Assembly (NCBI GenBank): GCA_035533595.1
Contig: DATLTN010000058.1
Location: forward strand, 1 to 43,838
DNA length: 43,838 nt
Direction of reading: 5' to 3'
Source: Acidimicrobiales bacterium
GTDB lineage: Bacteria > Actinomycetota > Acidimicrobiia > Acidimicrobiales > Bog-793
Below the pieces are notes generated by a model that was not told where the DNA came from, searched no databases, and saw only the letters and a list, made by a program, of their open reading frames with translations. This document shows positions 10,198-37,128 of the stretch, piece by piece. The translations under genes and the position numbers were made by a program. Positions within the stretch are counted from its first letter, which is position 1. Each line of letters starts with the position of its first letter.

Positions 10198-10389
10198 ATG
10201 CCCGTCGACTCATCAGCGCTCACCTCCGCCGTCGCACAGGCGGACGCCGCGGCGAACATCGCCTCGGGGGCCGCCGGCGTCGGGGCAGAGGACCCCCGCG
10301 CCGCGTCGGCGATCCAGATGCTCGGCGAAGCCGTGAGGGCCATGGGCGAGGCGGTGAAGACGCTCGCCGCAGCGGTCTCGGCCGTCTGA
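10198..10389 (+). CDS. Small Ala-rich hypothetical protein (63 aa)
   Basis: A 63-residue protein with one strong ribosome-binding site (GAAGGAGA, 6 nt before the ATG). About a third of the residues are Ala, with Val, Met and Gly in a pattern that could form amphipathic helices: 'LTSAVAQADAAANIASGAAG', then after 'EDPRAASAIQM' a second helix 'MGEAVKTLAAAVSAV'. There is no signal peptide or Cys. I do not recognise a family. It sits alone between a divergent reductase and a convergent gene, and a GAAGGC-GCG-GCCTTC hairpin just past the stop may end its message. A real gene is supported by the ribosome-binding site and G/C-biased third positions. Confidence 0.6.
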   Translation: MPVDSSALTSAVAQADAAANIASGAAGVGAEDPRAASAIQMLGEAVRAMGEAVKTLAAAVSAV

Positions 10390-10395
10390 GTGCAC

Positions 10396-10410
10396 GAAGG
10401 CGCGGCCTTC
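10396..10410 (+). terminator. Short perfect hairpin after the 63-residue protein gene
   Basis: GAAGGC, loop GCG, GCCTTC, seven bases past the stop codon and between two convergent genes. There is no T tract, so termination efficiency is doubtful. Confidence 0.35.
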
Positions 10411-10437: not shown

Positions 10438-10884
10438 TCAGCCAGTGACGGCTCCGCCGTGCTCGTCGAAGTACCGCCGCCACGACTCGGGGACCGAACC
10501 GGAGTCCTCGAGGAACTCCTCGCGCATCTCCTCGGCGAACCAGGAGTTGAGGCCGAGGTCCTCGGGCGCCTCCGCCGCCGCCTCGCCGCTTGCCACCGGA
10601 GCTGCCCCACCGGCGGGCAGCGGCGCGCGCAGGGGGATCACCGCTGCGTCGCCGTCCGCGCCGCCGCCCGCGCCCTCGGCGGTCTCGCGCGTCGGCGGGA
10701 AGTGGAACACGACGGCGTCGGTTCCGTCGGCCTCAGGGTGCCCGTCGACTTCGGCCGGCACCACCGCCGGCTCGGGGACGGGGGGCGCCGCCGCCTCGTC
10801 GTCGAGCACCCCTTCGAGCGAGTCGATGGTCGAGCCGTCGGCGCTCAACCCGTACTGCATCGAGGTGACCACAGCGCCGCTCAC
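10438..10884 (-). CDS. Protein ending in a 2-oxoglutarate dehydrogenase E1 N-terminal-like segment
   Basis: An open frame of 148 codons from GTG 10884. Its first 35 residues ('VVTSMQYGLSADGSTIDSL') continue, in the same frame, a sequence read upstream of the GTG (to about 10978), so the true start is further upstream. A Pro/Ala/Glu-rich middle follows. The last 35 residues, 'LNSWFAEEMREEFLEDSG' and 'VPESWRRYFDEHGG', closely resemble the short N-terminal domain of actinobacterial 2-oxoglutarate dehydrogenase E1/Kgd, which normally heads a protein of about 1200 residues. Here it is the C-terminus and the catalytic domains are absent. It may be a stand-alone adaptor-like protein or a remnant fused to another gene. 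Confidence 0.55.
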   Translation of the reverse strand: MSGAVVTSMQYGLSADGSTIDSLEGVLDDEAAAPPVPEPAVVPAEVDGHPEADGTDAVVFHFPPTRETAEGAGGGADGDAAVIPLRAPLPAGGAAPVASGEAAAEAPEDLGLNSWFAEEMREEFLEDSGSVPESWRRYFDEHGGAVTG

Positions 10885-11033
10885 CGTCTCGGAGCCGTAG
10901 CCGACCGTCGTGTTCGTGTTGGAGAACGTGGTGCTGTTGGTGGAGACGCTGGCGCCGGCCGCGGAGAGACCGATCGCCCTGCCACCACCGCGCCGATGGC
11001 CGACTTGTGCCTGACAAGCCTCGTGATGCGGAT
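10885..11033 (-). pseudogene. Shifted N-terminal part of the same gene (signal-peptide-like)
   Basis: From about 11033 one minus-strand frame reads 'IRITRLVRHKSAIGAVVAG', a typical basic-hydrophobic export signal. At about 10976-10981, next to a G run, the coding signal jumps frame and continues 'AIGLSAAGASVSTNSTTF' then 'TVGYGSETVSGAVV' into the 148-codon frame. One extra G would join them. The codon where ATG is expected is ATC (11033-11031), preceded by GGGAGG 4 nt away; no ATG, GTG or TTG lies at the right place. The Thr/Asn/Ser-rich part resembles exported or surface proteins with SipW-like signals, which is difficult to reconcile with a cytoplasmic E1-like tail. As written the gene is broken. 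Confidence 0.4.
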
Positions 11034-11228
11034 GGAACCTCCCTCCCTCGCCGTGCTCCGACGAGACGGCCCGTCCGCCGGTGCTTTGCCGATGTTCGGG
11101 GGATGAACTGGTTGTCCCCTCACAGATCGGTGCATTGAAGGCGCAACTAAAGAGTCGGACAGGAAGGCTGCGTCTCCCGCCGGGTTCCGCGCGCGGGGAA
11201 GGGGGGTTACCGGTCGGCCGGCGGGGCG

Positions 11229-12496: not shown

Positions 12497-13761
<1,265 letters not shown>

Positions 13762-14163: not shown

Positions 14164-14253
14164 CTGCCGAGTATTCCAAATGCGCGCCCGCCGACGCGGT
14201 GGCGGGCGCACCCGCTGTGTTACCAATGCGGCTCGGATCCGAAGCTGGAGAGC

Positions 14254-15157
14254 ATGCACGTCGACCCCTACATCGTCCTCGGCAGCGCGGTCATCGGCTT
14301 CCTCGTCGGGATGACAGGAGCCGGCGGCGGGGCGCTCATGACCCCGATGCTCATCCTCCTCTTCGGCGTCACGCCCTCGACGGCGATCTCGAGCGACCTC
14401 GTCGCCGCGGTGGTGATGCGCCCGATCGGCTCGCTCGTGCACCTCCGCAAGGGGGGCGTCAACCTCCGCCTCGTCGGCTACATGGTCGTCGGCTCGGCGC
14501 CGATGGCCTTCCTCGGCGCCTACCTGCTGCACCTCCTCGGCTCGAAGTCCGCCGCGCAGGCGAACATCGAGCACGCCCTCGGCGCGGCGCTCCTCCTCGG
14601 GGCTGGCGCGATGGTGCTGCGCTACGTCCTCGACCGCCGCGCCGGCAACGTCCGCGAGGGCATCGTCAGGGACCTCCCGGTGCGGATCCTGCCGACGATC
14701 GCGATCGGTATGGCGCCTCATCGTCGGCATGACCTCGGTCGGCTCGGGCTCGCTCATGATCGTGCTGCTGCTCTTCGTCTACCCGATGCTCGGCGCGAGC
14801 CAGCTGGTCGGGACGGACCTCACCCAGGCGGTGCCGCTCGCCCTCGCCGCCGCGCTCGGCGCGCTCGCCTTCGGCCACATCGAGCTCGCGGTGACGACGT
14901 CGCTGATCATCGGCAGCGAGCCGGCGGTGCTCGTCGGCTCGCTGCTTTCCTCGAGCGCCCCGGACCGCGTCGTGCGCCCGGCGATCACCTTCGTGATCTT
15001 CGCCTCGGGGCTCAAGTACGCCGGCCTCGGGACGACCGCGCTCGGCTGGGTGCTCTGCGGCGTGCTGCTCGGCGTCGGCCTCCTCTGGGCGACGTACGCG
15101 CGGCCGTGGAACCGCCCGACGCCCCAGCCCGCCGGGGAGGAGCCGACCGAGGGTTGA
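14254..15157 (+). pseudogene. TauE/SafE sulfite exporter-like permease, frameshifted
   Basis: An integral membrane permease of the TauE/SafE (DUF81) family, about 301 residues if repaired, expected to move sulfonate, sulfite or other small anions. The two internal half-repeats are clear: 'GFLVGMTGAGGGALMTPML' near the start and 'IVGMTSVGSGSLMIVLL' in the second half. Between them, at 14712-14717, the reading frame changes: the first half ends '...PTIAIGM' and the second resumes 'LIVGM' in another frame, consistent with two bases missing from a GGCGGC-like stretch. Each half alone would have only part of the membrane segments. The ATG 14254 has GGAG 3 nt upstream, a tight spacing. Confidence 0.82.
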
Positions 15158-29763: not shown

Positions 29764-30638
29764 AGCCCCGCCAGTTCGAGTACCACCGCCCCCGCCGCCT
29801 CGACGAGGCGCTCGGGCTCCTGGCCGAGCAGGGCGAGGAGGCGAAGGTCATCGCCGGCGGGCAGAGCCTGATCCCGATGCTGAACTTCCGCCTCGCCGCA
29901 CCGGCGCACCTCGTCGACATCAACGCCGTCGAGGAGCTCGGGACGCTCACGTTCACCCCTGACGGCGTGCGCATCGGCGCCACCGTCCGCCAGCACGCCC
30001 TCGAGCAGGCACCCGACGCCGCGCTCTCCTACCCGCTGCTCACGAGCGCCCTCGGCCAGGTCGCGCACCTGCAGATCCGCAACCGCGGCACCGTCTGCGG
30101 CAGCCTGGCGCACGCCGATTCAGCCGCCGAGCTTCCGGCCACGATGGTCGCCCTCGACGCGACGATGGTCGCCCGCTCGGTGCGCGGCGAGCGGCGGATC
30201 CCCGCCCGGGAGTTCTTCGAGTTCCACCTCGGCACCGCCCTTGAGGCCGACGAGCTGCTCACCGCGGTCGAGGTCCCCGCGTCGCCGCCGCGCTCGGCGG
30301 GGACCTTCGTCGAGCTCGCCCGGCGCGCCGGGGACTTCGCGCTCGTCGGCGCCGCCGCACAGGCGAGCTTCTCCGAGGGCGGCCGCGTCCTCGCGGCCGC
30401 GCTCAGCTGCTCGGGGGTCGCCCCGACGCCGCTCCTCCTCGAGGAGGCGGCGGCGATCGCGACCGGGAGCGCGCTCGAGGACGAGGTGCTGATGGAGGTC
30501 GACCAGGCCGTGCGGCGGGCGGTCGACCCGCCCGCCGACGTGCACGCCTCGGCGAGCTACCGCCGCGTCGTCGCCGGCACGCTCGCCCGCCGGGCGCTCG
30601 GCGAGCTGCGCGCCACGAGGGAGGCCCACGATGGCTGA
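29760..30638 (+). CDS. Molybdenum hydroxylase FAD subunit (CoxM/XdhB-type), set 1
   Basis: A 292-residue FAD-binding subunit that passes electrons from the 2Fe-2S subunit to an acceptor. 'VIAGGQSLIPMLNFRLA' (about 32-48) is the first FAD-binding stretch and 'IRNRGTVCGSLAHADSAAEL' (about 105-124) the second (T-x-G-G-like with Cys before the Gly). The C-terminal CODH_FAD domain ends 'YRRVVAGTLARRALGEL'. GTG start overlaps the hydrolase stop; its own stop overlaps the next ATG by 8 bp. Gene order M-S-L is as in carbon monoxide dehydrogenase-like and nicotine or quinoline-type hydroxylases. Confidence 0.92.
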   Translation: MKPRQFEYHRPRRLDEALGLLAEQGEEAKVIAGGQSLIPMLNFRLAAPAHLVDINAVEELGTLTFTPDGVRIGATVRQHALEQAPDAALSYPLLTSALGQVAHLQIRNRGTVCGSLAHADSAAELPATMVALDATMVARSVRGERRIPAREFFEFHLGTALEADELLTAVEVPASPPRSAGTFVELARRAGDFALVGAAAQASFSEGGRVLAAALSCSGVAPTPLLLEEAAAIATGSALEDEVLMEVDQAVRRAVDPPADVHASASYRRVVAGTLARRALGELRATREAHDG

Positions 30639-31131
30639 GGAGCAGGAGCTGCACGCGCTGAACCTGGTGGTGAACGGCGAGTCGCAGAGCGCGCTCGTCG
30701 AGGCGCGCGTCAGCCTCGCCGACTTCCTCCGCCACCGCCTCGGCCTCACCGGGACGCACCTCGGCTGCGAACAGGGGAGCTGCGGCGCCTGCACCGTGAT
30801 CGTCGACGGCCAGGCCGTGCGCTCGTGCTTGATGCTCGCCGTGCAGGCCGAGGGGACCGACGTCGAGACCGTCGAGTCGCTCGCCGTCGACGGCCAGCTC
30901 TCTCCGCTGCAGCAGGCCTTCCACGAGCACCACTGCCTGCAGTGCGGCTTCTGCACCTCGGGCTTCCTGATGTCGCTCACGGCGCGCCTGCGCCACGGGC
31001 CGGTCCTCGACGAGCACGAGGCCCGCGAGGCGCTCTCGGGCAACCTCTGCCGCTGCACCGGCTACGCCGGGATGGTGCGCGCCCTGCTCGAGCTCTCCGG
31101 CGCCGCCGCGCCGGCCGCGGAGCACCGATGA
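30631..31131 (+). CDS. Molybdenum hydroxylase 2Fe-2S subunit (CoxS-type), set 1
   Basis: A 166-residue iron-sulfur subunit. The plant-type ferredoxin cluster is bound by the Cys of 'GCEQGSCGACTV' plus the later 'VRSC' (Cx4CxxCx11C), and the second cluster by 'CLQCGFCTSG' and 'LCRCTGY'. Typical subunits are 150-170 residues. The start overlaps the FAD subunit gene and the TGA overlaps the large-subunit ATG in ATGA. Confidence 0.95.
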   Translation: MAEEQELHALNLVVNGESQSALVEARVSLADFLRHRLGLTGTHLGCEQGSCGACTVIVDGQAVRSCLMLAVQAEGTDVETVESLAVDGQLSPLQQAFHEHHCLQCGFCTSGFLMSLTARLRHGPVLDEHEAREALSGNLCRCTGYAGMVRALLELSGAAAPAAEHR

Positions 31132-33470
31132 CCCTCCCCGCAACCTCGGTGCGCACCCCCCTCGTCGGCACGGGGGTGAAGCGCCGCGAGGACCGCCGCC
31201 TGCTCACCGGCAAGGGCGAGTTCCTCGACGACCTCGCCTTTGCCGACTTCCTCGAGGCGGCGATCGTGCGCAGCTCGGTGGCGCACGCCCGCGTCCGCTC
31301 GGTCGACGTGAGCGCCGCCGTCGCGCTCCCGGGGGTCGCGGGGGTCTTCACCGCCGCGGACCTCGAGGAGCTCCTCCAGGACCTGCCGCCGAAGGTCACC
31401 CATCCCGACCTCCGCCCGCGCGTCCGCTTCCCGATCGTCCTCGACGAGGCCTGCTACGTGGGCGAGCCGATCGCGGTGGTCGTCGCCGAGAGCCGGCGCG
31501 TCGCCGAGGACGCGGCCGACCTCGTGGTCGTCGACTACGAGCCGTTCGGCGCCGTCGCGTCGACCGCCGCGGCGCTCGCAGCGGGCGGGCCGGTCGCCCA
31601 CCTCGACGCCGAGGACAACGTCTGCGTGCGCATCACCCAGCGCGCCGGCGAGCCGGACGCCGCTCTCGCGAGCGCGCCGCACGTGCTCAGCGAGACCTTC
31701 CGGATCTCGCGCGGCGGCGGCCACTCGATGGAGGGGCGCGCCGTCGCCGCCCGCTACGAGGCGGCGACCGGCGAGCTCACGGTGTGGGACGCGACGCAGG
31801 CGCCGCACTACGCCCGCCAGCAGCTGGCCGTGCTCTACGGCCTCACCGAGGACCGGATCCGCGTCATCGCCCCGACCGACGTCGGCGGCGGCTTCGGCCC
31901 GAAGGCCCAGTTCTACGGCGAGGAGGTGCTCATCCCCTACCTCGCGATGCGCCTCGAGCGGCCGATCAAGTGGATCGAGGACCGCTGGGAGAACTTCGTC
32001 TCGGCGGCGATGGAGCGCACCCAGACCCACCGCGTCGAGGTCGGCTTCGACGAGGAGGGGCACCTCCTCGTGCTGAAGGACGTCTTCGAGCACGACCAGG
32101 GCGCCTACTGCCTCGGGTTGCAGGTGCCGACGATCACGATGTCGACGCTGCCCGGGCCGTACGTGATCCCGAACATCCACAGCGAGCTCGTCTCCTGCTA
32201 CACGAACATGGCGCCGACGAGCTCGCTACGGGGCGCGGGACGCCCGCAGGCCGTGACGGTGATGGAGCGGATGGTCGACCGCGTCGCCGAGCACCTCGGC
32301 CTCGCCCCCGAGGAGGTGCGGCGCCGCAACCTCATCCCCGCCGACGCCTTCCCCTACCGCGTCGGCCTCCTCTTCCGCGACGGCTCCCCCCTCACCTACG
32401 ACAGCGGCAACTACCCGGGGCTGCTCGACGGCGCGCTCGCGCGCATCGACCTCGCCGCCTTCCGCGCCGAGCAGACAGAGGCCCGCAAGGCCGGCCGCTT
32501 CCTCGGAGTCGGGATCGCGATGTGCGTCGAGGGCACCGGCCTCGGCCCCTACGAGGGGGCGCGCGTCCGCCTCACGAACTTCGGCCGCATCCTCGTCACC
32601 CTCGCGGCCGCCCCGCAGGGCCAGGGCTACCAGACCGTCTACGCGCAGCTCGCCGCGGATGCCCTCGGCGTCGACTTCGACCTCGTCGACGTGCGCCACG
32701 GCGACACCGCGAACATCCCCTTCGGCCAGGGCACCTTCGGGAGCCGAGTCACCGCGAACGCCGCCCCCGCGGTGCACGACGCCTGCCGCCAGCTCGCCGC
32801 CGACCTGCGCAAGGCCGCCGCGATGCTCCTCGGGGTGGACGCCGAGGAGATCGAGATCGCCGGCGACGCGGCGGTGCTGCGGAGCGACCCGGAGCAGCGG
32901 GCCACCCTCCTCGAGCTCACCCGCCACTACAACGTCGGTCGCCACGGCATGGCCGTGAAGCCCGGCTCCCCGGTGGGCCTCGAGCGCACCGCCTACTTCA
33001 CCCCCGAGCGCGCCGCCTACTCCTCGGCGATCAACGTCGCCGTGATCGAGGTCGACGCCGAGACCGGCCTCGTCACCTTGCTGCGGACGATCCTCGGCCA
33101 CGACTGCGGGACGGTCCTCAACCCGCTCCTCGTCGACGGCCAGGTCTACGGCGGCTTCGCGCACGGCGTCGGCAACGCCCTTTACGAGGAGATGCACTAC
33201 GACGAGGAGGGCACCCCGCTCACCGTCAGCTACCTCGACTACGCGCTCCCCGGCGCCCTCGAGCTCGTCACCCCCGAGCTCTTCCACCAGGAGACCCCGA
33301 GCCCCCTCAACCCGCTCGGGGTGAAGGGGACCGGCGAGTCGGGGACGATCCCGACGCCCGCCGCGATCGCGAACGCCGTCGAGGACGCGCTGCGCCCCTT
33401 CGGGGCGCGCATCACCACCCTCCCCCTCACCCCGCCCCGCGTGCTCGGCGCGCTCGGCGTCACCGGCTGA
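31128..33470 (+). CDS. Molybdenum hydroxylase large subunit (CoxL/XdhA-type), set 1
   Basis: A 780-residue molybdopterin-cytosine-dinucleotide subunit that hydroxylates a C-H bond of the substrate with water. It opens 'VGTGVKRREDRRLLTGKG' (about 13-30), has 'GGGFGPKAQFYGEE' at the cofactor and 'SLRGAGRPQAV' where CO dehydrogenases have an AYxCSFR loop, so it is not a form I CO dehydrogenase; catalytic Glu737 is in 'KGTGESG'. Likely substrates are aromatic or N-heterocyclic compounds or aldehydes. The stop is 39 bp from the facing small subunit of set 2, which is convergent. Operon with ubiD suggests hydroxylation and decarboxylation act on the same pathway. Confidence 0.92.
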   Translation: MTLPATSVRTPLVGTGVKRREDRRLLTGKGEFLDDLAFADFLEAAIVRSSVAHARVRSVDVSAAVALPGVAGVFTAADLEELLQDLPPKVTHPDLRPRVRFPIVLDEACYVGEPIAVVVAESRRVAEDAADLVVVDYEPFGAVASTAAALAAGGPVAHLDAEDNVCVRITQRAGEPDAALASAPHVLSETFRISRGGGHSMEGRAVAARYEAATGELTVWDATQAPHYARQQLAVLYGLTEDRIRVIAPTDVGGGFGPKAQFYGEEVLIPYLAMRLERPIKWIEDRWENFVSAAMERTQTHRVEVGFDEEGHLLVLKDVFEHDQGAYCLGLQVPTITMSTLPGPYVIPNIHSELVSCYTNMAPTSSLRGAGRPQAVTVMERMVDRVAEHLGLAPEEVRRRNLIPADAFPYRVGLLFRDGSPLTYDSGNYPGLLDGALARIDLAAFRAEQTEARKAGRFLGVGIAMCVEGTGLGPYEGARVRLTNFGRILVTLAAAPQGQGYQTVYAQLAADALGVDFDLVDVRHGDTANIPFGQGTFGSRVTANAAPAVHDACRQLAADLRKAAAMLLGVDAEEIEIAGDAAVLRSDPEQRATLLELTRHYNVGRHGMAVKPGSPVGLERTAYFTPERAAYSSAINVAVIEVDAETGLVTLLRTILGHDCGTVLNPLLVDGQVYGGFAHGVGNALYEEMHYDEEGTPLTVSYLDYALPGALELVTPELFHQETPSPLNPLGVKGTGESGTIPTPAAIANAVEDALRPFGARITTLPLTPPRVLGALGVTG

Positions 33471-33509
33471 CGCTCGTCGGCTGGCTCGGCCGCTCGGTCG
33501 CTCGGGTGA

Positions 33510-33971
33510 TCAGCCGCCGCCGCGCCGGCGGGCGGCGGCCGCCACGGCCTCGGTGATCTCGAAGTAGGTGCCGCAGCGGCAGAGGTTGCCGGCGAGGTGC
33601 TCGCGGATCTCGGCGGGCGAGGGCGAGGGGCGCTCGGAGAGCAGCTCGTGGGTCATCATCACGAAGCCCGGGATGCAGTAGCCGCACTGCAGCGCCCCCG
33701 CCGCGACGAAGGCGGCGACCACCGGGTCCTCCTCGCCGAGGCCCTCGACGGTGAGGATCTCCGCACCGTCGTAGTCGGCGGCGAGCGCCAGGCAGCTGCT
33801 CACGCTGGCGCCGGCGACGAGCACCGTGCAGGCGCCGCAGGCCCCCACCCCACAGCCCTCGCGCACGCTCGTCACGCCGACCTGCTCGCGCAGCACGTCG
33901 AGGAGGAGGTCCTCGTCGCGAGCCTCGACGGCGCGCGACCTGCCGTTCACGACGAGGGTGAGCCGCCGCAT
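33510..33971 (-). CDS. Molybdenum hydroxylase 2Fe-2S subunit (CoxS-type), set 2
   Basis: A 153-residue iron-sulfur subunit with 'GCGVGACGACTV' and 'VSSC' for the ferredoxin-type cluster and 'LQCGYCIPGF' with 'NLCRCGTY' for the second. The ATG overlaps the last base of the large-subunit stop (TGATG). Gene order M-L-S differs from set 1 (M-S-L), so the sets are not a recent tandem duplication. Confidence 0.95.
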   Translation of the reverse strand: MRRLTLVVNGRSRAVEARDEDLLLDVLREQVGVTSVREGCGVGACGACTVLVAGASVSSCLALAADYDGAEILTVEGLGEEDPVVAAFVAAGALQCGYCIPGFVMMTHELLSERPSPSPAEIREHLAGNLCRCGTYFEITEAVAAAARRRGGG

Positions 33972-36295
33972 CAGCCGAGGTCCCCGAGCGCGCTGCGCAC
34001 CCGTTCGGGGGTGAGGGGGAGGGTGGTGATGCGCACCCCGACCGCGTCGCGGAGCGCGTTCGCGATCGCCGGGGCGACCGGGAGGATGCCCGTCTCGCCG
34101 ACGCCCTTCGCGCCGAAGGGGCCGCTCCGGTGCGGGCTCTCGATGATCAGCGGGGTGAGGCGCTCGGGCATGTCCAACAGCGAGGGGAGCTGGTAGTCGA
34201 GCATCGAGCCGTTCACCAGCTGGCCGTTGTCGAAGACCATCTCCTCGAAGAGGCTGAGGCCGATGCCCATGATCGCCGCCCCCCGCAGCTGCTGCTCGAC
34301 GAGGGTCGGGTTGATCGCCCGCCCGACGTCGCCGGCGACGGCGAGGTGCTCGAGCGCGATCCTCCCCGTCTTGGTGTCGACGTGCAGCACCACCCCGACG
34401 GCGCCGGCGAACCAGTGCTCGGTGACGCGCTCGGACTGGCCGGTCTCGTGGTCGTAGGGGATCCACTCGGTGGCGAAGCCGGCCTCGGTGGAGAGGGTGG
34501 TGCCGCGGGCGCCGAAGTGCCCCTGCACGAGCTCGGCGAGGGTGAGGCGCTCCTGCGTGCTCGAGGCGAGGAACCCCTCGGGGCCGATCTTCACGTCGGT
34601 CTCCGCGACCCCGAAGCGCGCCGCGGCGATCTCGAGCAGGCGGTCGCGCATCTTCTCCGCGGCGAGACGCACCGCGTTACCGGTGTGGTAGGTCGAGCGG
34701 CTGCCGGCGGTGATCGTGTCGTAGGGGGTGACGTCGGTGTCGGTCGGCACCACCCGGATCGTGCCCGGCGCGAGACCGAGGACCTCGGCGACGAGCTGGG
34801 CCATGATCGTGTCCGAGCCCTGGCCCATGTCGACCGTGCTGATCGACAGCGAGGCCGAGCCGTCCTGGTTGAGCTGCAGCACGGCGTTGGAGATCGTCGG
34901 GGTGAGCACCGCCTTCACGCCGACCGCCACCCCCCGCCCCCGCCGGAAGCGCCCTTCCGGGCGGTCGAAGGGTTCCTCCCAGCCGATCTCGGCGGCGACC
35001 GCGTCGAGGCAGGCGAGGAAATCGGCGCTGTGCATGCGCGTCCCGACCGGGGCGACGTCGCCCTCGCGCAGCAGGTTGCGGCGGCGGAACGAGACGGGGT
35101 CCTCGCCGCGCGCGCGGGCGAGCTCGTCGACGAGCGACTCGTGGGCGAAGGTGAGCTGGGGAACGCCGAAGCCGCGGAAGGGGCCGGCCGAGGGCTTGTT
35201 CGTGTAGACGCAGCGCGAGCTGATCGCGACGTTCTCGACCCGGTAGGGGCCGGCGGCGATCATCCCCGACTTGGCGGTGATGCGCGGCCCGACGTCGGCG
35301 TAGGCGCCGGTGTCGTAGACGATGTCGGCGACCGAGGCGAGCAGGTTCCCCGCCTCGTCGGCCGCCATCTGCGAGCGCACGCGCGCGCCGTGGCGGGTGG
35401 TGAGGAGGAAGGCCTCCTCCCGGCTCGCCGCCAGCTGCACCGCGTGGCCGGTCACCCAGGCGAGCGCGGCGGCGACGGGCTCCAGGCGGTCGTACATCTT
35501 CGAGCCGAAGCCGCCGCCGAGCGGCGCGGCGCGCACCCGCACCGCGGCGAGGGGGATGCCGAGCAGGTCCGAGGCCATCTGCCGCACGTAGGAGGGCGTC
35601 TGGGTGGTGGTCACGAGCTCGAGGCGGTCGCCCTCGCGCCAGGCGACGGTGCGCGGCAGCTCGATCGGGACGTGGTGGATCGGCGGGGACCAGAACTCCC
35701 CCTCGACGCGGCTCGCGCCGCTCCCGATCGTGGCCTCGGCGTCGCCGCGGCGGAGGCGGAAGTGGTAGTTGACGTTCGTCTCGCGCACGCCGCGCAGGTG
35801 GGCGAGGTCCTGGAAGACCGTCGAGGGGCGGAGCTCCTCGTGGACGAAGGCGCGGTTCTCGAGGGCGGCGTCGACGTCGAGGACCGCCTCGAGCTCCTCG
35901 TAATCGACCCCGACGAGGTCGGCGGCGGCGCGCGCCGTGGCGAGGTCCTCGGCGATCACCGCGACCACCGGCTCGCCGACGAAGCGCACCCGCTCGTAGG
36001 CGAGCGGTGGCTGGTCGGCGAAGGCGGGCCCGGTGAAGATCGCGTCGCCGAGGGCGTCGTGGAGGTCGGAGCCGGTGACGACGGCGAGCACCCCGGGAAG
36101 GGCCCGCGCCTCTTCGAGGTGCAGGGCGGCGAGGCGCGCGTGCGGCCGCAGGCTGCGGTGGAAGGCGACGTGGACGACCTGGCGGGTCCGCTGGTCCGCC
36201 GTGTACTGCAGTTGGCCGCGCACCTTCGCGACGTCGTCGCTGCGCCGCCAGCGCTGGCCGACGGCGCCCGTTTGTGCGAGCTCCTCGATGCTCAC
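33971..36295 (-). CDS. Molybdenum hydroxylase large subunit (XdhA/CoxL-type), set 2
   Basis: A 774-residue molybdopterin subunit. After the start it reads 'AVGQRWRRSDDVAKVRGQLQ' (about 9-28); the cofactor loop is 'PLGGGFGSKMYDRLEP', the substrate loop 'SAGPFRGFGVPQL' and the catalytic Glu734 is in 'KGVGETG'. 'FRGFGVPQ' is the xanthine dehydrogenase/nicotinate hydroxylase pattern rather than the CO-type. The usual distinct substrate is a purine, aldehyde or N-heterocycle. GTG at 36295 overlaps the FAD-subunit stop, in GTGA. Operon: coxG, FAD subunit, this gene, 2Fe-2S subunit. Confidence 0.92.
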   Translation of the reverse strand: MSIEELAQTGAVGQRWRRSDDVAKVRGQLQYTADQRTRQVVHVAFHRSLRPHARLAALHLEEARALPGVLAVVTGSDLHDALGDAIFTGPAFADQPPLAYERVRFVGEPVVAVIAEDLATARAAADLVGVDYEELEAVLDVDAALENRAFVHEELRPSTVFQDLAHLRGVRETNVNYHFRLRRGDAEATIGSGASRVEGEFWSPPIHHVPIELPRTVAWREGDRLELVTTTQTPSYVRQMASDLLGIPLAAVRVRAAPLGGGFGSKMYDRLEPVAAALAWVTGHAVQLAASREEAFLLTTRHGARVRSQMAADEAGNLLASVADIVYDTGAYADVGPRITAKSGMIAAGPYRVENVAISSRCVYTNKPSAGPFRGFGVPQLTFAHESLVDELARARGEDPVSFRRRNLLREGDVAPVGTRMHSADFLACLDAVAAEIGWEEPFDRPEGRFRRGRGVAVGVKAVLTPTISNAVLQLNQDGSASLSISTVDMGQGSDTIMAQLVAEVLGLAPGTIRVVPTDTDVTPYDTITAGSRSTYHTGNAVRLAAEKMRDRLLEIAAARFGVAETDVKIGPEGFLASSTQERLTLAELVQGHFGARGTTLSTEAGFATEWIPYDHETGQSERVTEHWFAGAVGVVLHVDTKTGRIALEHLAVAGDVGRAINPTLVEQQLRGAAIMGIGLSLFEEMVFDNGQLVNGSMLDYQLPSLLDMPERLTPLIIESPHRSGPFGAKGVGETGILPVAPAIANALRDAVGVRITTLPLTPERVRSALGDLG

Positions 36296-37128
36296 GCGAG
36301 CTCCTCCCAGGCGCGCGCCAGCGCGTCGGTGATCGCCACCCGGCCGAGCTCGGCTTTGTAGGCGACGCTGCCGCGCACGTCGGGGAGCGGGTCGAGCAGC
36401 TCCTCGGCGGCCCCGAGGGCGCGCGCCGTCGCCGTCTCGAGGTCGGCGTCGCCGAGGTCGAGCGCGAAGTAGGTCGTGGTCGGGGCGAGCGCCCCGAGGC
36501 CGACGGTGAGGCGGCGCCCGCCAGCGCCCTCCTCGAGGGAGACGGCGACCGAGGCGCAGGGCCAGTCGTTGGCGGCGAGGGAGGAGAGCTTCTCGTAGGC
36601 GGCGACGACGCTTCCCCGCGGGCAGGGCACCTCGATCGCCGAGATCACCTCGTCGTGTGCGAGGACAGTCTGCTCGAAGCCGGCGAAGAACTCCCGCACC
36701 GGGACCCTCCGTCGGCCGCGCCCCGTCGAGGCCTCGACCGTCGCGTCGAGGGCGATGAGCGCCACCGGCGGGTCGAGGCGGTAGTCGCCGTGCGCGAGGT
36801 TGCCGCCGATCGTCGCGGTGTTGCGCACCCGTGGGTTCGCGACCTCGCGGCAGGCGAGCGCGAGGAGCGGCACCCGGCGGCACACCTCGGCGTCGCGCTC
36901 CAGCCGCCGCAGGCGCACCATCGGGCCGATGCGGAGGGCCTCGTCGCTCACTTCGAGGAAGTCGAGGCCGGGCACCGCGCCGAGCGAGACGAGGTCGCTC
37001 GCGAAGAGCACCCCCTGCTTGGAGAGGATCTGGATCGCCGTGCCACCCCCGTAGACGACGGCGTCCTCGCGCTCGGCGAGGAGCTCGAGCGCCGCGGCGA
37101 GCGAGGTCGGACGGTGGAGCTCGGGCAT
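36292..37128 (-). CDS. Molybdenum hydroxylase FAD subunit (CoxM-type), set 2
   Basis: A 278-residue FAD-binding subunit. 'VVYGGGTAIQILSKQG' (about 25-40) and 'VRNTATIGGNLAHGDYRLDP' (about 95-114) are the two FAD-binding stretches, and 'SVAYKAELGRVAITDALARA' ends it. The ATG follows the coxG stop directly (TGA then ATG on the minus strand) and the gene's own stop overlaps the large-subunit start, so translation is coupled throughout. Confidence 0.92.
   Translation of the reverse strand: MPELHRPTSLAAALELLAEREDAVVYGGGTAIQILSKQGVLFASDLVSLGAVPGLDFLEVSDEALRIGPMVRLRRLERDAEVCRRVPLLALACREVANPRVRNTATIGGNLAHGDYRLDPPVALIALDATVEASTGRGRRRVPVREFFAGFEQTVLAHDEVISAIEVPCPRGSVVAAYEKLSSLAANDWPCASVAVSLEEGAGGRRLTVGLGALAPTTTYFALDLGDADLETATARALGAAEELLDPLPDVRGSVAYKAELGRVAITDALARAWEELA

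Follow-up and report, generated by a model that had tools for sequence, protein, structure and literature searches.

Published work assigns a docking role to the N-terminus of E1o. In the human protein, residues 18-40, which include YVEEM and LENPKSVHKSWDIF, have been proposed as a dual-subunit-binding domain that contacts both E2o and E3 (PMC8146983), and the E1o N-terminus tethers E1o to the E2o core (PMC9974300). E. coli E1o attaches to the E2 core through its N-terminal extension, and C. glutamicum OdhA has been inferred to do likewise (PMC7568260). A helical hairpin is visible in full-length MsKGD, where it makes intermolecular contacts, and it is mobile in OdhA (PMC10415282). MRPS36/KGD4, a small adaptor protein in the OGDH complex of eukaryotes, has been reported to be without a prokaryotic orthologue (PMC9974300). 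Here, we describe a docking hairpin of the E1N type (Pfam 2-oxogl_dehyd_N, PF16078) at the end of a small orphan protein encoded in the window, by which we mean the whole analyzed DNA stretch of 43,838 nucleotides. It is a real domain in an architecture that was seen in one sampled genome.

The minus-strand frame that ends at 10438 carries a genuine E1N domain at its C-terminus. In a search of the genome the PF16078 profile scored 39 bits (E 2.2e-9), and a full Pfam scan of the 177-residue frame gave 36.6 bits (E 3.2e-9). The gathering cut-off of the family is 27 bits, and by profile score the tail is therefore a member. The match takes up the last 40 residues of the frame, and the stop follows about 8 residues past the domain. 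The nearest solved relative by sequence is C. glutamicum OdhA, to which the tail aligns at residues 8-45 (phmmer, chain 8p5t of the solved structure, E 4e-4). An AF2 single-sequence model of the orphan predicts helices at residues 143-156 and 162-171 with a local pLDDT of about 72-79 and has low confidence outside the tail. Both blocks of the E1o N-terminus, FAEEM and LEDSGSVPESWRRYF, are present in the hairpin. Thus, the likeness to the E1 N-terminal domain and the C-terminal placement that had been noticed in a sequence-only reading of this DNA both hold. The Pfam scan of the frame returned no other match; there is no E2 acyltransferase and no E1 domain behind the hairpin, and the product is hence not a Kgd or OdhA. 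A chance resemblance, or a misassembly that joined the end of a kgd gene to another gene, would agree with a find in one genome only, but we regard it as very improbable. A score of 39 bits against a cut-off of 27 speaks against chance, the frame has its own stop between convergent genes, about 85 coding linker codons precede the hairpin, and a misjoined kgd would continue into its linker and E2 domain.

Features of the orphan locus (positions in the window)
Feature	Position	Strand	Basis or remark
Perfect palindrome GAAGGC-GCG-GCCTTC	10396..10410		between convergent stops 10389 and 10438
Uninterrupted coding frame: head from the jump onwards, then linker, E1N and the TGA stop at 10438	10438..10977	-	codon GC and HMM
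2-oxogl_dehyd_N (E1N) docking hairpin, PF16078	10462..10554	-	Pfam profile and AF2 helices
Ala/Pro/Glu/Gly-rich linker	10555..10814	-	no family match; coding periodicity on sense strand
First half (truncated) of small exported-protein family, homologues L099-L103	10815..10977	-	sequence match and family HMM
Frame jump in GGG run, between signal-like codons and rest of head	10977..10979	-	joined query matches its own genome twice, each time in another frame
Signal-peptide-like codons (IRITRLVRHKSAIGAVVA), first codon ATC, without a canonical start	10980..11033	-	sequence; match G000:C58:10935-11033
Shine-Dalgarno-like AGGGAGG	11038..11044	-	4 nt before ATC 11033

The frame of the tail is open over 428 codons on the minus strand. 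Over 177 of these codons (10971-10441) the GC content by codon position is 0.72/0.57/0.92, which resembles that of the long genes of the window, and a base-composition HMM assigns 10446-10967 to a single coding segment in the same frame. The codon periodicity (GC3 0.92) marks a single coding frame that extends from about 10971 and stays intact up to the stop at 10438. Its architecture is, in order, the head, a low-complexity linker of about 85 residues, the hairpin and the stop. First and third codon positions are high in the linker, as in a sense strand with many GNN codons and unlike an antisense frame. An origin of this linker from the Kgd linker by tandem duplication was considered and rejected; a hand alignment was suggestive, but its score lies below the shuffled mean (94% of shuffles reach it). 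Behind the stop, the predicted fold around the palindrome was no better than that of shuffled sequences. A 63-residue Ala-rich ORF (10198-10389, plus strand) with a good Shine-Dalgarno sequence runs convergent with the orphan frame; it has no Pfam match and hardly any relatives.

The head of the orphan protein resembles an unrelated, small exported family. It matches the protein of G001:C425 at 41% over 68 residues, and the HMM of the exported-protein family gives it 16.8 bits, with the similarity stopping near ..STIDSL. The alignment of the family profile with the orphan is confined to the signal and VGYGSETVSGAVVTSMQYGLSA and stops near IDSL. The orphan and the family (L099-L103, for example the 131-aa G001:C425 protein) have in common the signal, the motif VGxGxxxVSGxxVTxxxYxL and then IDSL. 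The family members continue past this point, whereas the orphan is devoid of the second half of the domain and hence falls short of a full domain of some 100 or more residues downstream of the signal. The family itself is present in several relatives, and L099, the member that was scanned, has no Pfam match above the cut-off.

The sequence-only reading had started the protein at 11033 and had placed an export signal and the tail in one protein. The codon at 11033 is ATC, and in the open frame of the tail no ATG, GTG or TTG precedes the GTG at 10884, before which no Shine-Dalgarno sequence was seen by eye. The codons from ATC 11033 share one frame as far as the GGG at 10979-10977, and the tail lies in another frame. 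As sequenced, signal and tail are not joined in one frame. A GTGA overlap between the TGA stop of the signal frame and GTG 10884 was considered as a coupling signal and set aside because the family match places this stretch in the other frame.

The frame jump at 10979-10977 could be an assembly error. A gene for an NDH-2 type NADH dehydrogenase (12498-13761, plus strand), the single copy in the genome, has a break at GGGG 12542-12545, within its FAD-binding glycine motif. A TauE/SafE permease gene (14242-15157, plus strand) is split near 14716 into two frames, which correspond to consecutive parts of PF01925. Together with the orphan these are three breaks within 4 kb, and the other frame changes examined in the window are ordinary gene boundaries. 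Poor local assembly accounts for the three breaks at least as well as decay does. Since the two neighbors carry comparable breaks, the frame jump does little to indicate a pseudogene; somewhat stronger evidence comes from the ATC start, which is a substitution. The neighboring breaks would also suit a genuine exported protein, in which the ATC and the jump are assembly errors (or the ATC a rare start) and the hairpin is a generic extracellular helical tail with no role in ODH. A strong Shine-Dalgarno sequence and signal-like codons are suitably placed for such a product, and the coding signal is present on the tail side of the jump. We nevertheless consider this reading rather unlikely: the exported domain is halved, the ATC is a substitution and not a homopolymer slip, and to our knowledge E1N has no extracellular use.

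An intact kgd gene elsewhere in the genome, a point that the sequence-only reading had raised, was found on another contig (G000:C47). It is a 1294-codon frame of the order E1N-E2-E1 with all five Pfam domains (PF16078, 2-oxoacid_dh, E1_dh, Transket_pyr and OxoGdeHyase_C). As in the relatives, it adjoins an SDR39-type gene, and for this reason we rejected the idea that the orphan is a displaced native kgd. The hairpin of the host Kgd (G000:C47:7809-7901, L053) is unusually divergent, with a mean identity of 48% to relatives that share 71% among themselves.

Compared with 42 hairpins of Kgd relatives, the orphan keeps five of the six fully invariant positions (N, W, V, W and F of N, W, P, V, W, F). 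The invariant P is changed to S, and among near-invariant positions V is changed to A and Y/F to R. The orphan hairpin is 41% identical to the host hairpin and 37-56% identical to the others. It shares two rare states with the host hairpin, F in NxWF and Y in WRxYF, which hint at a descent from the host lineage; these are two conservative changes, too few to serve as proof. The Pfam profile scores the orphan hairpin (39 bits) above the host Kgd hairpin (36.2 bits), and a profile of the relatives places it below (53 versus 57 bits). In a drift simulation the motif score of the orphan was reached in 17% of runs, a test of little power in which even the complete Kgd hairpin of the host stood only at 9%. 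High GC3 together with the lack of a stop in the hairpin is expected in 7-15% of runs. Taken together, the motif and GC3 results lean slightly towards constraint, over a stretch of 27 codons and with tests that were chosen after the fact; according to the simulation the hairpin could also be drifting.

Searches with PF16078 covered three overlapping sets: 60 relatives, a class sample of 395 genomes and a phylum sample of 396. Neither in the 60 relatives nor among the matches listed for the class and phylum samples, where weak single matches could be missed, did we find a further orphan E1N; the same holds for homologues with the architecture that the sequence-only reading had envisaged. The short-frame E1N matches that were opened are kgd genes cut by contig ends. 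Among the matches listed, few other genomes have two PF16078 matches: G018, where the second is cut by a contig end, G268, with one of its two at the start of a contig, and, in the phylum sample, three large congeneric genomes, among whose second copies one falls in a 943-codon frame. Two scans of genome contigs, one scan of viral contigs and one plasmid search yielded no relatives of the orphan sequence and no donor. Conservation as an independent gene was thus not seen in the relatives, among the matches listed for class and phylum or in the genome-contig scans with the orphan sequence. Around the L,D-transpeptidase gene next door, no shared neighbor was found in the relatives' loci looked at, one side of which was covered systematically. 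Elsewhere in the window, at about 30632-36300 on both strands, genes with a 2Fe-2S motif and putative large subunits similar to those of xanthine/CO dehydrogenases were picked out by eye.

The reading that we favor, with moderate confidence, is a lineage-specific chimera, in which an exported-protein head was fused in frame with a duplicated Kgd hairpin. Duplication and in-frame fusion are the likely origin. The 5' part of a small exported-protein gene would have been joined in frame to a low-complexity segment that ends in the duplicated Kgd/E1o N-terminal docking hairpin, with the stop just behind, and what is seen today would be a relic, or else a chimera of very recent origin that has no established role. 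The head would export the product, whereas the E2 core and E3, the partners known for an E1N hairpin, reside in the cytosol; a relic or a roleless young chimera therefore seems the better description. The points in favor are the real C-terminal domain, the half-domain head, the ATC, the frame jump, the complete Kgd elsewhere, the lack of a second case in the sampled genomes, the altered near-invariant positions and the 17% obtained under drift. Against a relic stand the periodicity up to the stop, the five of six invariant positions, a Pfam score above that of the host, the 7-15% under drift and the breaks in NDH-2 and TauE. The sequence-only reading had offered either a captured adaptor or two fused gene remnants. 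The fusion fits better because the head is half a family domain, the initiator is non-canonical, the frame jumps and the architecture was found in no other sampled genome. The adaptor is less favored, and it keeps some probability in view of a coding signal that persists along the whole frame and of assembly-like frameshifts in two neighboring conserved genes. A relic is more likely than a working adaptor. For the cargo shell that had been brought up as a possible partner, the locus offers no supporting evidence.

A cytosolic product of the orphan could dock on the complex, and an exported one could not. It might be that translation starts at GTG 10884 or nearby, that the signal was lost and that the hairpin docks on a hybrid PDH/ODH E2 core, where it would compete with Kgd or recruit another protein. 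The published work on the E1o, OdhA and MsKGD N-termini (PMC8146983, PMC9974300, PMC7568260, PMC10415282) is in line with such a role, as are the two blocks FAEEM and LEDSGSVPESWRRYF and the intact coding signal, and the genome encodes an E2-type protein with a subunit-binding domain (G000:C24) as a candidate partner. However, there is no Shine-Dalgarno sequence before this GTG, the head would become a meaningless half-domain, conservation was seen in no other sampled genome, and the near-invariant V and Y/F and the P of the hairpin are changed. We therefore judge a working cytosolic docking protein to be possible but unlikely. A more specific idea is doubtful: a free-standing E1N tail acting in trans, as a small cytosolic protein that would use a duplicated Kgd hairpin to bind the actinobacterial PDH/ODH E2 core, either as a competitor of Kgd or as a tether for something else. 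The idea of E2 binding is drawn from the published E1o N-terminus and not from data on the orphan locus. If the orphan is functional, a bacterial ODH docking module would be used outside the enzyme, and studies of how the hybrid PDH/ODH complex tethers E1o to E2 would gain a natural tool. If it is a relic, it would exemplify a duplicated domain, fused in frame, that profile searches would mistake for a further dehydrogenase gene.

As to the known systems, MRPS36/KGD4 is comparable by analogy only, in being small and docking on the core of an oxoacid dehydrogenase; no sequence relation is claimed. The closer comparison is with the PF16078 hairpin of Kgd, OdhA, SucA and E1o. The orphan shares with it the helical blocks N-x-W-F-x-E-E-M and S-V-x-E-S-W-R-x-Y-F at a score above the Pfam cut-off, and differs in that near-invariant positions are altered and the hairpin stands at the C-terminus of a small protein without an E2 or E1 domain.
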